In this document: positions 52,830 to 58,668 of the stretch, one piece after another
Numbering within the stretch: position 1 is the stretch's first letter
Layout: each line of letters opens with the position of its first letter
Assembly: GCA_033439295.1 (NCBI GenBank)
Contig: JAVTLE010000014.1
Coordinates: 930,001 to 994,000, forward strand
Length of the DNA stretch: 64,000 nt
Reading direction: 5' to 3'
Source of the DNA: Deuterostichococcus epilithicus
Taxonomy: Eukaryota; Chlorophyta; Trebouxiophyceae; Prasiolales; Stichococcaceae
Made by a program: the position numbers and the translations under genes
Notes under the pieces: model-generated
What the model saw: the letters and a program-made list of their open reading frames with translations, nothing else
The model's database searches: none
What the model was told of the DNA's origin: nothing

Positions 52830-55800
52830 TCACGACGCTGCCAGCACGGAGTGCACATAGAAGGTGGGCGCATCGGCGGCATTGATGCCATTGAAATTGC
52901 AGGCGCCACACAGAGTGTACGCGCCCATGTCTGGGAAGGCCAGCCAGTCGCCGTTGCGCAGTTCCGGCAGCGGGTACGACTGCAGTTGAGAACAGGACTG
53001 TTACTGATGGGTCCAGCCGCCAGGGCCAGCAGCACTCGGCACCAGTGTCTCCACCCGCAACCCGCAGCTGGCGGCAAGAGCAGCGTAATACCAGAGGAAC
53101 AAGCACAAAATTCCAAAAGGAACTGCAGGTCAGGCGGCGCAAGCAGTTCGCACCTGGAACAGCGTGTCCAGGCCGTCGCACGAGGGGCCAAACACCGTGG
53201 ACGGGTACAGCTCTGCAGCCGCGCTGTCGACGGCAGGCACCGGCAGCGTCGGGCAGCGCAGCGGCCGCGTTGTCGGTGTCGCAAAGTCGTACATCACACA
53301 GTTGAAGGAGCCGTACAGGCCGTCGGTGATATAGTAATCGAACGCTGAGGGCGCCACGGGCGCCGCAGCGGCAACTCCAGTGGTGGCGGCGGCGGACTCT
53401 GTCGAGGCGGCGGCGGCTGCCGCCGCCGCCGCCAGGGCCGTGGGGCCGCGCCTGCGGCGACCAAACACCTGGCACACCAGCGTGGCGCACGCCTCCGCAA
53501 AGAACCTGCAGCAGCACAGGGGTGCGATCAACCTCCGATGCATCGTTTGCCCAGCGAACTGCTGGCTGCCTGCTGGCGACAGCGTCCGGCGCACATGCGT
53601 GGCCTTGTGCAAGGTGGCAGCGGGCAGCGGCCCCGACACCGTCTTGAAAAGGCAGAACTTGCTCATGCTGCGTTGCTCATGCTGTGACAAATGTCAGAGG
53701 TCAAAATCCCAAAACGTGCGACCAGCTATTGGATGTCGGCAAGTGATTTCACCTGCCGGGCTCGGCAATGATGTCCACGCCGCGCTCGGGCGGGAAGTGC
53801 GCCGCGAGCGCCGTATTGACGGCGGTTGGAACACGGCCCAGGTCTACGCGGCCGGCGCAGTCGATGCTGCCGCCCGGGAAGCCGCCACCGATGTCCAGCA
53901 CCCTGTGGCGAGGATGCTTGGAAGGTTCATAAGGGTTTTCACAGGCTTGGGCACCATGATGCAACGGTCTGACGATCGCTGCAGGCACCCACGACTACTG
54001 CAGGCAGCCAGGCAGCTGGAGGCAACACGGGTCGAGTTCACTGCAGTTCTTGCGAGGAGGGATCCGTTTCCTCGCCATCAGGCGGAACTATGAAACTGCC
54101 CTCACCGCATGGAGAAGCCCAGGCGCTCTGCGGAGGCAAAAACGGCAGCGGCGGCTGCGATGCCCTCCGGCAGCGCATCCGGGTTGCTGGCGCCGCTCCC
54201 AACGTGGAAGGAGACGCCCGTCAGGTCCAGCCCCAGTGCCTTTGCGACAGCCAGCAGGCCTGCGCAGTATTCAGCGGTTTTTAAGGTCATTGATGACTTT
54301 ACTTTTGCATGCATTCGCATTCTCGTAGGAAAAATGCTGGAGGTGGACGCCAGGCATGTGCGACCGGGCCCAGGGATGCGCCGCCACACACATGCAGACG
54401 ATGACTGAGGCATGCGGCTGTTGGGCTGGTAAGTTCTCAGTGATGATCGACCAGAAGGTCACCGCTGATTCAGGATGGTATTGCACCGTAAGAAGACGCA
54501 CCGTCGATGTCGCCGGGCTCTGCGCCATACTTGTTGCCCAGCTGGCAGCGGGCAGACGGGTCATCCTGCCGGATGCGCAGCAGCACCCGCGCCCCCGGGT
54601 CCAGGGCCGCAATCTTGCGCAGCTCAGACTCCGAGTCCGCCGTCGTCATTGTCACATCTGCCTCCTTGGCAGCCCTGCATTTCACAGTGTCTTCAGTTGA
54701 GGAAACGAGAAAGACAGTCACAGACAGGGCGTATCCCCACAGCGCATGCTTAGGTCTGTCCGCCCAAGCTGCGGCACGGCCAGAGGTCACATGAAGCGTG
54801 CCGGCGCGTCTGCTAAAATGTCCTGTGCATTGCGCAGTGCAGATAGAGGAATCAGGGTGGCGACGCCAGTGGAAGGACACTCGCCTGATGTCGGATGGCC
54901 GCTTGCAGGCATTGGCAAAGATGATGCGGTCAGGCGCCACACCGCAGCCGAGCACGGCGCGTATCTCTGCCTCAGAGGCGCAGTCGAAGCAGGCGCCCGC
55001 GGCGGCGAGCACCTCCAGCAGCGCCGGGTCGCTGTTACACCTATTCACATACGGAGGGGACCACGGATCAGATGGCGACTGTCACTTAGACGTTGAGGCC
55101 CTTGGGCCAATGCCTCGCCGCTGCTGCTTCAACAGATGCACCGTGCCAAGCAGCATGAGCATCTCGCACATGCTGTCCACAAGCATCCTGTCAAAATGGT
55201 TGAGGCACTGGCGAACGTAGTCCGTCAGCGACGAGAAGGGGACAAGGACTTACTTGACAGCGTAGAAGGGGCGCACACGCGGCATGAGCTGCGCCCAGGC
55301 GGCCGCCAGCGCCGCCACGACACCCAGGTCGAGCACGTAAAAGGTGTCGTCCAGGCCGTGGGCCTTGATCAGGGACCCAATGTGGGCGTCCAACGCCGCC
55401 ACGTCGACCGCCGGCACTGGCGCAGCACGGTGCTTGGCCAGGACGGCCACAACCGCCTCGCCGTGGGGGCCCACCGGCACGCTCGGCGTGGAGTCAGCGA
55501 TGCCCGCCGCCGGCAAGTGCGCCTCGAACGGCGGCGGCTTGACGACGGCAGAGAAGCTGCCGCTTAGTGAGGCGTCGCCGCCGCCGCCGTCGCCCTCAGA
55601 GTCCGAGCTGTAGGCCGACAGCTGCGCCTCCAGCGGCTGCGGCACCGGTGGGCAGGGTGCATCGCTCGCAACAGAGCACGCCGGCGACGGCGGCCGCGGG
55701 TGCGGGTCGCAGGCAGCCTCCTCGGCGGCGCCCGCCAGGGCCTGCGGCAGCGGTGCGGCCGCGGCGGCGTCGGCCGCGACGAGGGTGACAAATGTCACAC

Positions 55801-57565
55801 GGCCGCCGGCCGACACATCCTGCACAGTCTTGCTGGCGACAGCGTAGCCGCCTGGCGCAGCCAGGGCGGCGCCCCAGGAGTGGTCCCCGGCGGCGCCGTC
55901 CACGCTGGTCACAACCGCCATGTCGGCCGGGCGGAAGATGTCCGCGATGCGAGCCACCAGCCGCTCAGCGTCAATGTCGTCGAGCGCCTGTTGTGCGGGC
56001 GACGGCAAGCCGTCACAGCAGAGTACAGTAGAGACGAAATGTGCAGCGCGGACACCCCACCATGTGCACCATCAGTGGCGATCGGCACCACATCTTGACA
56101 TTGCCACAACAGACGGGCATTGCTGTACAGGACTGCAGAAGGGATCCTGCTGGGCATGCGATCGAGGGACATCGCACCTGGCATGACACCTCCACGCTGG
56201 CGTAGGAGAAGCCATCCTCGGGCGTGATGTGGATGGTGGAGCACTGCGGCCCCGCCATGCCGTTCATGGAGTAGCCGCACGGCTCGAAGCTGCACTTACA
56301 CCAGGCGACTGGTAAAGGCTGGCTGAGGGAGGAGGCTTGGTGATCATTGCAGTGGCAGGCAATCGGTGCAGCAGCCGAGCTGCAGGGACTCAAGCAAGCA
56401 ACTCTTAGAACATTCAGGCTGCTCGTGTTGCGCAGCCAGAGCCAGGCATGAACAGGGTCGGGTGCTGCTGGGGAACTCACACATAGTCGTCGATCTTGGC
56501 GGCGGGCAGCAGCGCGCGGATGCCGCTGGCCTCGGTGGTGGCCTCAGCCGAGATGAAGCCGGGCTTGCGGGCAAACTGCGCCGCCTTCTCAGGGTCCAGG
56601 CCTGTCATGCACACCTCCAGCGTGTATGCCTGCGATGTTTGAAACACGAGCGGTTGCTTTTGAAGACCGCTGGAGCGCCAGGGCACGCATGGAGTGGATC
56701 CTTCTCCAAAGATCTGATATGGCTTGGCCGTGCTCTTATAAATGCAGCGCACTGTTGACTGAGCTTGAAATGATATGTGCAATATAGTTCTCAGTAGTGT
56801 GCAGGCTCACCGGCTTGTGCCAGGCAGCAGCGGCAGCGCTGTGCGCCACGAAGACGTGCCACTGCAATCCCCTCAGGGCGTCACCCAGCACATAGGCGCC
56901 GGAGATACCGCCCATGGAGGCGAAGGCAGACTGCAGGAGGCGTGTCTCGTGCGTGAAGCTGGCGTGCATCTCTGGCTGCGCAGCAACAAGGACAACCATG
57001 TCAGCAAGGCGGATGCGTTTTCCTGCTATGGCGCCAAGTGCCTAACTCAAATGGCAAACTTGCGTGATACAGAGGCATCATGCGCTGCACACGCCCCACA
57101 GGCAACCCAGCCATGGCCCAGCCGGATCCCACGAACAGGCGCAACATGCGCACAGCGCACGATGCAGCCATCACACACCTGCTGCTCGGGGAAGAGGTAG
57201 GAGGCGCGCGTGTATTTGGCGCGGCAGGGCTGCAGGCCGGCGCCGGCGGCGGCCTCGACCAGCGCTGGCACCGCCGCCAGCAGCTTGGTGGTGCCGCATG
57301 TCTTGAGGATGGCCTTGCGCGAGTACACGAACAGGCTGCTCTCCGACAGCACGTAGGCGTCAAAGTCGGCGCCGTGGCGGGCGGACACGATGCAGCAGGC
57401 CGCCAGATCCAGGATGGCGTCCAGCTGCGGGCGGCCGATACTGCGCAGGCCGCCCAGGGCCGCAGCCGCGCCTGGCGTGTGCGCGAAGTCGATCTCGATG
57501 CGCTTCTCCGAGCCCTCGAACACGGGCGTCGGGAAGACGGGGGCAGCGGCGGCGGGGGGCGCCAT
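52830..57565 (-). CDS. Fused S-adenosylmethionine decarboxylase - ornithine decarboxylase
   Basis: Predicted bifunctional polyamine enzyme making decarboxylated SAM and putrescine. The ATG at 57565 ([14 protein letters not shown]) leads to [12 protein letters not shown] (paired Glu of the AdoMetDC site), then [16 protein letters not shown] (57355-57310; the Ser of ESSLF is the self-cleavage/pyruvoyl residue) and KTCGTTKLL (catalytic Cys). Later exons carry [37 protein letters not shown] with [13 protein letters not shown] (56290-56185). One uninterrupted exon (about 55995-55252) runs from the AdoMetDC end ([33 protein letters not shown]) through an Ala/Pro/Ser linker into the ODC N-terminus ([27 protein letters not shown]; Lys binds PLP). 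ODC then shows [62 protein letters not shown] and [19 protein letters not shown]. The TGA is at 52830. All main catalytic residues of both halves appear present. Confidence 0.9.
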
Positions 57566-58668
57566 GCCTACTGCTGACGGCTGCGTCTGACTGGCTGAAA
57601 ACAGGAGCTAGCTAATGCGACAGCGTGCTGGCGCAGCTGCGGTGCTGTCTAGGTGCGCCCGAGTCCTGTCAGCTGGGCTTCTTCACGCACTGCGAGCAGG
57701 ACGCAGCAGATAATGGTCAGTGACATGTGCACAGATCATATTCCAGCCACTGCACAACGAACAGCGGTCCTTCTTCAAAAGAGCCGGAGGCGCCTGAGAG
57801 ACAGCGATTCGATAGGTGCACGCCGGCGGCACAGCGCCGGGGCATTATCGGATGGACAGCCGCCACAAAACGCGCTCCTGTCTACCCGGCAGCTTCCCAA
57901 ACCCGGCAAACTCGGCACACTGGCTTGACATCGAAAGCGTGCCAATGGTGCAATGATCGAACGGCAGGAGGCAAAAGATCACGCACGTCGCCGTAATCAG
58001 GAGCAAACTTGCGCGAGCCACCGGGCAGCAAGTCCTCGCAGTCGTCGAGGGGCGGCGCGTGCTGGTGCGTGCGCCCGGGGTTATTCACGCTGCTAAATAG
58101 ATTACTATTACTGCCGTCTTCTGAATCTTGCATGCTGGGGTACAGGGTCGTCCAGCTTTACGTCCGGCTGAGTCAAGCGAGCGGTGCTGCTCGCTGCGAT
58201 GAGAAGGCTTGACGCTGAGAAAGCAGAGTGTGCAGTTTACGACGATAACAAAGCTGAGAATACGAGTGTCTGCTCGATGTGCTGTTTGAGCGTGCGAACT
58301 TGTGTGTGCGTACAACTGCGACTGGCTATGCGTTGCCGCCGTCGGCAATTATTGTTGCACATTGAAAAGGGTTTGGAGACAGTACTTTACTATTTACAAC
58401 ACAACAGCCGCAAGCCCCAAGCCCCCATTCACGATTGAGAGGCCTGGCCAGCACGTTCGGCTGTCGAATCCCCGTGTTTGTTTCGTCTCGAACCACTCGA
58501 ACCTGCATCACTCGAGTCCTGCCGCCGCCAGGGCAAGCGCCACCACGGCAGTCGGCACCATGCCACCATGACCCCATGTAACTGATGCCAGCAGGAGCGT
58601 GTTGACACAAACAACATGAGCTAACGATGTTTCAACTTGAATCAGCCAGGCTATGGATGGACTCATTA
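57566..58668. promoter_or_regulatory. Leader and upstream region of the decarboxylase fusion
   Basis: About 1.1 kb between the fusion's ATG and the SDR stop. It contains the uORF at 57987-58133 and probably at least one leader intron. No other coding signal is seen. The promoter was not located. Confidence 0.5.
57987..58133 (-). CDS. Conserved-peptide upstream ORF of the AdoMetDC mRNA
   Basis: An ATG at 58133 opens a short frame MQDSEDGSNSNLFSS, then APPLDDCEDLLPGGSRKFAP followed by DYGD, ending at a good donor (GAC|GTGCGT, edge 57987); unspliced, the frame runs to a stop at 57882. The core resembles the regulatory small uORF of land-plant AdoMetDC mRNAs (SSLFYEAPLGYSIEDV then RPNGGIKKF and a Tyr-Ser-Asn near the end): both share S-x-LF, AP-L, E-D-[VL], P-x-G-G-x-[KR]-KF and a Tyr-small-acid/amide end. 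In plants this peptide stalls ribosomes when polyamines are high. The match was made by eye from memory and the peptide's 3' exon is unresolved. Confidence 0.65.

Follow-up and report, generated by a model that had tools for sequence, protein, structure and literature searches.

The green alga Deuterostichococcus epilithicus carries S-adenosylmethionine decarboxylase (AdoMetDC) and ornithine decarboxylase (ODC) as one predicted protein, encoded on the minus strand at 57565-52830 of a window of 64,000 nt (assembly GCA_033439295.1, contig JAVTLE010000014.1, positions 930,001-994,000 of the forward strand; C12:930001-994000 in our numbering of the 46.8-Mb genome, which has 21 contigs). Polyamine synthesis is regulated at these two enzymes, and usually by separate means, with antizyme acting on ODC in animals and fungi and an upstream open reading frame (uORF) on AdoMetDC. 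The analysis of sequences presented here suggests that the locus is probably a working bifunctional polyamine gene with a leader-type uORF in front of it, and that the fusion dates back to the green-plant ancestor or close to it. The fused enzyme architecture is in itself not new, and it is old in green plants; the leader-like uORF ahead of the fused gene is the new part and the more informative one. A search of the open-access literature, with subscription papers outside its scope, found no description either of how widely the fusion occurs among green plants or of a uORF preceding the fused gene.

Hand splicing of the minus strand gave 11 exons with a coding length of 2682 nt including the stop codon, which translates into 893 residues without internal stops. 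AdoMetDC is encoded by exon 1 (57179..57565, residues 1-129), exon 2 (56811..56975, residues 130-184), exon 3 (56481..56629, residues 185-233) and exon 4 (56178..56289, residues 234-271). Exon 5 (55254..55987, residues 272-516) holds the end of AdoMetDC, the entire linker (55397..55771, residues 344-468) and the beginning of ODC as far as YAVK, and the remainder of ODC is found in exons 6 (54885..55040, residues 516-567), 7 (54502..54674), 8 (54106..54259), 9 (53753..53902), 10 (53154..53505) and 11 (52830..52979), the last of which ends in the stop codon. Nine introns are of the GT-AG type and one, after 54885, is GC-AG; the exon 6 donor at 54885/54884 reads CAG/GCGAGT and is the sole non-GT donor among the ten. 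In the 893-residue protein, the Pfam family SAM_decarbox matches residues 15-338 (310.6 bits, E 1.7e-92) and Orn_Arg_deC_N matches residues 495-730 (242 bits, E 8.2e-72), with a further match to Orn_DAP_Arg_deC (64 bits, E 1.5e-17), placing both enzymes in one predicted open reading frame with AdoMetDC at the N terminus. The preliminary description of this DNA had proposed a single gene with AdoMetDC first and ODC second and with the junction inside one uninterrupted exon at about 55995-55252. The gene model and the Pfam matches to both families confirm one gene for one protein in that order, and the boundaries of the junction exon are refined to 55987-55254.

The junction exon begins at residue 272 in AdoMetDC and ends two bases into the codon for Lys-516, the pyridoxal phosphate lysine; the next intron interrupts this codon. 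None of the ten exon junctions coincides with a gap in an alignment with eight related fusion proteins; gaps a few residues away from junctions 184, 271 and 676 are common to other alignment rows or caused by them. A search of the protein against its own genome recovered the locus exon by exon with 71-100% identity, the low values coming from matches that run beyond exon ends, and the junction region (residues 270-517) was recovered with 99% identity.

The 125-residue linker is rich in Ala, Pro and Ser. Identity to the database protein P0001 is 59/110 in the linker, 258/337 in AdoMetDC and 339/419 in ODC, and the linker is thus the least conserved part of the fused protein, which fits the expectation for a tether. 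Low conservation is also what would be seen if two neighbouring genes had been joined by an assembly error, or if two transcripts were made with a promoter inside the linker. Such an arrangement is very improbable, as the junction lies within one open exon and no other PF01536 locus was found in the genome, where the family matches the fused locus only (four exon matches). The linker has no Met, and as none occurs anywhere at residues 294-506, there is no ATG inside the linker from which ribosomes could start a complete ODC. An assembly error joining two genes, which the preliminary description had named among the findings that would overturn it, is judged unlikely because both domains occur in the same order in all 126 fused database proteins (see below).

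The catalytic residues of both halves are predicted to be intact. The AdoMetDC half contains FEGSEK (residue 16), SESS (74) and KTCGTT (88) in exon 1 and CGYSMN (238) and IHITPE (253) in exon 4, and the ODC half contains FHVGSG (643) in exon 8, GGGFPG (682) and EPGR (724) in exon 9, TDGLYG (787) and FGPSCDGLD (832) in exon 10 and GAYT (863) and CNFNG (871) in exon 11; the motifs ESSLF, KTCGTT, FYAVK, HVGSG, GGGFPG, EPGR and CDGLD that had been reported initially are all present. At the positions compared, which we take to be catalytic, the ODC half is identical to Trypanosoma brucei ODC in 13 of 13 cases, including the equivalents of K69, H197, S200, G237, E274, R277, C360 and D361 (T. brucei numbering) expected of an ODC with the alanine racemase fold. 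The AdoMetDC half equals the human enzyme at 12 of 17 positions (human numbering). It has the SESS self-cleavage site and the equivalents of C82, S229 and H243 of a eukaryotic pyruvoyl enzyme, and at position 68 it carries the pyruvoyl Ser, where the human chain taken for comparison has been mutated to Ala. The four remaining differences are L13R, F111K, S113T and D174A; potato AdoMetDC has R at 111, T at 113 and V at 174, with no letter at 13. Asp-174 of human AdoMetDC is described as a putrescine-binding residue (PMC5201418). The window protein has Ala and potato has Val at this place, and just 2 of the 33 green rows have Asp; it is therefore unlikely that putrescine from the ODC half directly activates the AdoMetDC half as in the human enzyme.

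One mRNA would accordingly be expected to give one 893-residue polypeptide, the N-terminal half decarboxylating S-adenosylmethionine and the C-terminal half ornithine, and since the two would share a single polypeptide, putrescine and the aminopropyl donor would be supplied by enzymes in a 1:1 ratio. Judging from homologues, the AdoMetDC half is likely to cut itself between E75 and S76, which would generate the pyruvoyl group and a 75-residue beta chain and would leave ODC attached to the alpha chain.

Upstream of the main frame, an ATG at 58133 opens a predicted spliced uORF of 55 codons, 168 nt including the stop, which the preliminary description had not noted. Its first exon (57987..58133, minus strand) comprises the start codon and the first 49 codons (MQDSEDGSNSNLFSSVNNPGRTHQHAPPLDDCEDLLPGGSRKFAPDYGD), a GT-AG intron of 297 nt (57690..57986) lies directly before the codon of the conserved Cys in CxxKPS, and the second exon (57669..57689) encodes CVKKPS and the stop, 103 nt ahead of the main ATG. 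There is no ATG between the uORF stop and the main ATG, and no overlapping "tiny" uORF was found in the preceding 600 nt. The only Pfam match of the spliced peptide among 24736 models is PF08132, AdoMetDC_leader (E 0.018, 15.3 bits); the unspliced peptide and three other upstream open reading frames match no Pfam family. This leads to the question whether the uORF is a chance open frame, with the fused protein made under ordinary control and the two enzymes merely tethered as reported for Plasmodium. The score lies below the curated PF08132 cut-off of 25 bits, as would suit a chance frame, and a whole-genome PF08132 profile search gave no match, the uORF locus included, although exons were read singly in that search and control genomes were silent too.

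Because the splice had been noticed by eye, guided by what we take to be the ending of plant AdoMetDC leaders, the peptide was put to a test. Peptides were enumerated from every ATG of the 900-nt leader, allowing either no splicing or a single GT-AG intron of 60-600 nt, and the resulting 739 were scored with a profile of 106 plant leaders ending in KPS, taken from 120 listed leaders. The uORF peptide ranked first of the 739 with 13.7 bits, followed by a peptide with the same two ends (10.0 bits), and the best score from 140 other 900-nt stretches of the window was 7.8 bits. Its C-terminal half aligns up to the stop with PL, ED, P, GG, KF, Y, C and KPS of 11 chosen plant leaders, following the pattern ED..P.GG..KF...Y..C..KPS-stop; the KPS end is shared by all 12 aligned rows, and by 106/120 listed leaders. 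Furthermore, the fusion protein of Closterium sp. Naga37s-1 (P0260) bears the same peptide ahead of AdoMetDC-ODC with 51 bits, and with 45 bits against PF08132, over the curated cut-off. The Closterium protein departs from the leader peptide right after AAYSN, which at the protein level is the aligned point of the uORF intron in the window. The alignment, the lower scores of the control stretches and the Closterium protein all argue against a chance frame, which we regard as improbable; the uORF peptide looks homologous to the plant AdoMetDC leader.

In Arabidopsis, ribosomes reportedly arrest at the stop codon of this uORF in response to polyamines. By analogy with plants, high polyamine levels would stall ribosomes on the algal uORF and both enzymes would be turned down together, so that one polyamine-responsive uORF may control both. 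With the fused gene under the AdoMetDC uORF, ODC would come under the same translational switch. Members of this uORF family have been listed for Ulva, Chlamydomonas and Selaginella (PMC2075485), and Selaginella has a fused gene (P0088).

The fusion is neither specific to Plasmodium nor peculiar to D. epilithicus. A search for relatives returned 148 proteins, of which 120 were listed, and a second search gave 35 proteins, 16 of them with PF01536. All 120 matches listed carry PF01536 and PF02784, and 119 also carry PF00278; those with more than 90% coverage show 37-71% identity. AdoMetDC precedes ODC in 127/127 fused rows (the window, the 120 listed and six from the second search), with a median linker of 104 residues and a range from -48 (overlap) to 406. 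Sources among the matches listed include Micractinium, Nannochloris, Trebouxia, Elliptochloris, Myrmecia, Coccomyxa, Auxenochlorella, Prototheca, Apatococcus, Tetraselmis, Bryopsis, Cymbomonas, Klebsormidium, Closterium, Selaginella and Ceratopteris, and further record prefixes presumably stand for Nephroselmis, Mesotaenium, Mesostigma and Spirogloea. The second search added the liverwort Calypogeia and the alveolates Vitrella brassicaformis and Cardiosporidium cionae, an apicomplexan. The named sources thereby comprise chlorophytes, streptophyte algae, a liverwort, Selaginella, a fern and two alveolates, and their broad spread over the green plants indicates that the fusion is old there. The source names of the listed fused records are mostly "ornithine decarboxylase", "Adenosylmethionine decarboxylase" or "hypothetical protein", and some are plainly wrong. 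Proteins with both Pfam families, which the preliminary description had suggested seeking in green algae and alveolates, are thus found in green algae, land plants and two alveolates, and in naming Plasmodium as the known case it did not go far enough, since nine apicomplexan and three plant fusions are already counted in an eLife legend of 2016.

Three of the database proteins deserve separate mention. P0093 from Prototheca wickerhamii (694 residues) keeps the AdoMetDC motifs and lacks the middle of ODC, with neither HVGS nor EPGR, which could mean that the gene model has a gap or that this non-photosynthetic alga has lost ODC. P0120 and P0255 (1553 and 1326 residues) appear by eye to be fusions in which both enzymes, and the region between them, contain very long stretches of low complexity.

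To place the fused enzymes, separate trees of the two halves were inspected; the nearest relatives of the window protein in them point to a green alga. The ODC tree has 48 rows, after removal of five and trimming of one, and is unrooted; it lacks red algae, stramenopiles and dinoflagellates, and alveolates are represented by Vitrella and Cardiosporidium only, without Plasmodium. One side of a branch with support of 100/100 is formed by 33 green fused rows, the window included, and the ODC domain of the angiosperm Coptis, which comes from a predicted protein in which it is fused to an ATR-like kinase. The Coptis domain groups with streptophytes (95/87), and an alternative tree that puts it outside is not rejected (approximately unbiased test, p 0.08). 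In a fuller tree of 53 rows, a moth sequence and the sequence env261, both on long branches and with no listed AdoMetDC, also fall among the green rows, and the green group has support of 96/84. Outside the green clade, the two alveolate fused ODCs form a group (100/96) with two environmental ODCs in which no AdoMetDC is detectable. Trees with all fused rows together to the exclusion of unfused ones are rejected (p 5e-6), probably due to the nested unfused rows, and this result fits separate fusions as well. Without a root and without the missing groups, the ODC tree fits one or two fusion events.

A single ancient fusion common to green plants and alveolates, and hence to Plasmodium, with later splits in red algae, diatoms and dinoflagellates, would explain why Vitrella and Cardiosporidium have the same domain order, with linkers of 182 and 192 residues. 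The ODC trees show the green, the alveolate and the animal-fungal-T. brucei sequences as three neighbouring groups, and green and alveolate sequences are allowed as sisters. On the other hand, the green clade (100/100) does not include the alveolate fused ODCs, among which the two environmental ODCs are nested, and several splits would be needed, since in the table of a 2018 review ODC and SAMDC are entered under different accessions for red algae, diatoms and Symbiodinium (PMC6356823). Given also the unrooted and incomplete tree, such a common origin is unlikely. Transfer from a green endosymbiont to alveolates was rejected, both alveolate ODCs being outside the green clade, as was a viral origin, for which two scans of viral contigs with six and two peptide patterns, a weak test, found no relative. 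The preliminary description had left open an independent algal fusion or an older shared one. The fusion is indeed old and shared within green plants, as far as the 100/100 branch of the ODC tree can tell, and with respect to alveolates the trees give no decision: of the two halves for which separate trees had been proposed, ODC groups the green fusions, and the AdoMetDC tree is unusable for the alveolate question because long branches meet.

Two metagenome proteins, P0254 and P0256 (1018 and 1043 residues), are ODCs grouping with the Cardiosporidium fusion, and their N-terminal part of about 430 residues matches no Pfam family, so that the partner has possibly been replaced or has decayed. 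A degenerate AdoMetDC in this part had been suspected by eye; a profile comparison gave it 0.63% probability, and Pfam nothing, and the idea was dropped.

Within the green plants, the AdoMetDC tree offers a lead on the origin of the split enzymes. In the tree with 37 rows, the stand-alone potato enzyme falls among fused land-plant rows, adjoining the fern Ceratopteris (99/86). With 35 rows, excluding potato from a clade of fused streptophytes is rejected (p 0.0076), as is excluding it from the fused greens (p 0.022); its exclusion from the fused land plants is not (p 0.054). Potato and human are the only stand-alone AdoMetDCs in the tree, and the nesting of potato is therefore a lead and not proof. 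Tentatively, the ancestor of all green plants may have had one gene for both committed polyamine enzymes under one polyamine-sensing uORF, and the AdoMetDC of seed plants with its uORF may be the front half that was left after a split; we consider this a serious possibility, a little less likely than not. If it holds, the textbook autoregulatory switch first evolved to set the supply of putrescine and aminopropyl groups together, and the split enzymes of seed plants are the derived state. Fused enzymes from outside the parasites are now at hand for linker studies, and the proposal can be tested in culturable algae and with reporters.

The remainder of the genome was searched for other polyamine enzymes. 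PF02784 matches four loci with nine exon matches: the fused locus and one locus each on C3, C7 and C1. By eye, the C3 locus looks like a diaminopimelate decarboxylase and the C7 locus (G000:C7:294104-294307) like a SpeA-type arginine decarboxylase. The C1 locus, on the plus strand at about 3020-5450 of L013 (G000:C1:1595000-1603000), is ODC-like, with 53% identity in its best exon. An apparent frame change lies between its YAVKCNP and LGALGASFDCAS stretches, and an in-frame TGA stands immediately before TPAAFAAA, with no intervening AG for a splice acceptor. With these defects the C1 copy looks like a pseudogene, which leaves the fused gene as the only intact ODC found. The in-frame TGA sits in a telomere-like TTTAGGG stretch with an inverted partner; TTTAGGG repeats occur at the ends of C1, C3 and C5 and also in C4, and the damage at C1 perhaps stems from a break filled with telomere sequence. 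An agmatine deiminase locus (G000:C12:3126527-3128730) was also found, together with two aminopropyltransferase loci (C12:4488k and C13:1287k). The arginine decarboxylase-like and agmatine deiminase loci make an arginine route to putrescine beside ODC probable. A search of the genome for ODC antizyme gave no match, and control genomes were equally silent.

Several of these observations weigh against a jointly controlled bifunctional gene that goes back to early green plants. ODC is probably not the sole route to putrescine, given the arginine decarboxylase-like locus identified by eye and the agmatine deiminase locus. The fusion is not universal in green algae: in the 2018 review table, Chlamydomonas, Volvox and Bathycoccus have different accessions for the two enzymes, ODC and SAMDC, and Chlorella variabilis has no SAMDC entry (PMC6356823). 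The same table enters Micromonas XP_003057072.1 under both ODC and SAMDC, with no remark there. The linker could be cleaved after translation. As to the uORF, its peptide scores under the family cut-off, its splice was first spotted with a plant motif in mind, and a leader is visible in only 1 of the 126 fused database proteins, that of Closterium; the last count is weak evidence either way, since protein models normally omit uORFs.

Among known systems, the bifunctional Plasmodium enzyme has the same N-to-C order as the window protein, with AdoMetDC first, as has the apicomplexan Cardiosporidium. The alveolate fusions differ in their linkers (182 and 192 residues in Vitrella and Cardiosporidium, 125 in the window) and in the separate clade of their ODC halves, and we know of no plant-type leader uORF for the Plasmodium or any apicomplexan gene. 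As in the window, both Plasmodium enzymes are described as parts of one open reading frame (PMC5004602, PMC3912857), and deletion of the bifunctional gene in P. yoelii is reported to block mosquito transmission (PMC5004602). The public fused plant and algal records, such as those of Micractinium, Klebsormidium, Selaginella and Ceratopteris and Micromonas XP_003057072.1, share the architecture of the window protein. In the diatom and bacterial fusions that have been described, AdoMetDC is likewise joined to another polyamine enzyme, but the partner is an aminopropyltransferase and not ODC (PMC6356823, PMC12803844). The plant AdoMetDC conserved peptide uORF (homology group 3, PF08132) is similar to the uORF of the window in its size, its KPS-stop end and its position ahead of AdoMetDC. 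If the number triplets in PMC2527020 are read in this way, the uORF of rice and Arabidopsis AdoMetDC has 156 nt, compared with 168 nt in the window, and the spacing to the main frame is 154-179 nt in plants, compared with 103 nt. Unlike the plant genes of this group, the fused gene shows no overlapping "tiny" uORF in the preceding 600 nt, its leader-like peptide scores under the Pfam cut-off, and the frame downstream of its uORF encodes ODC as well as AdoMetDC.

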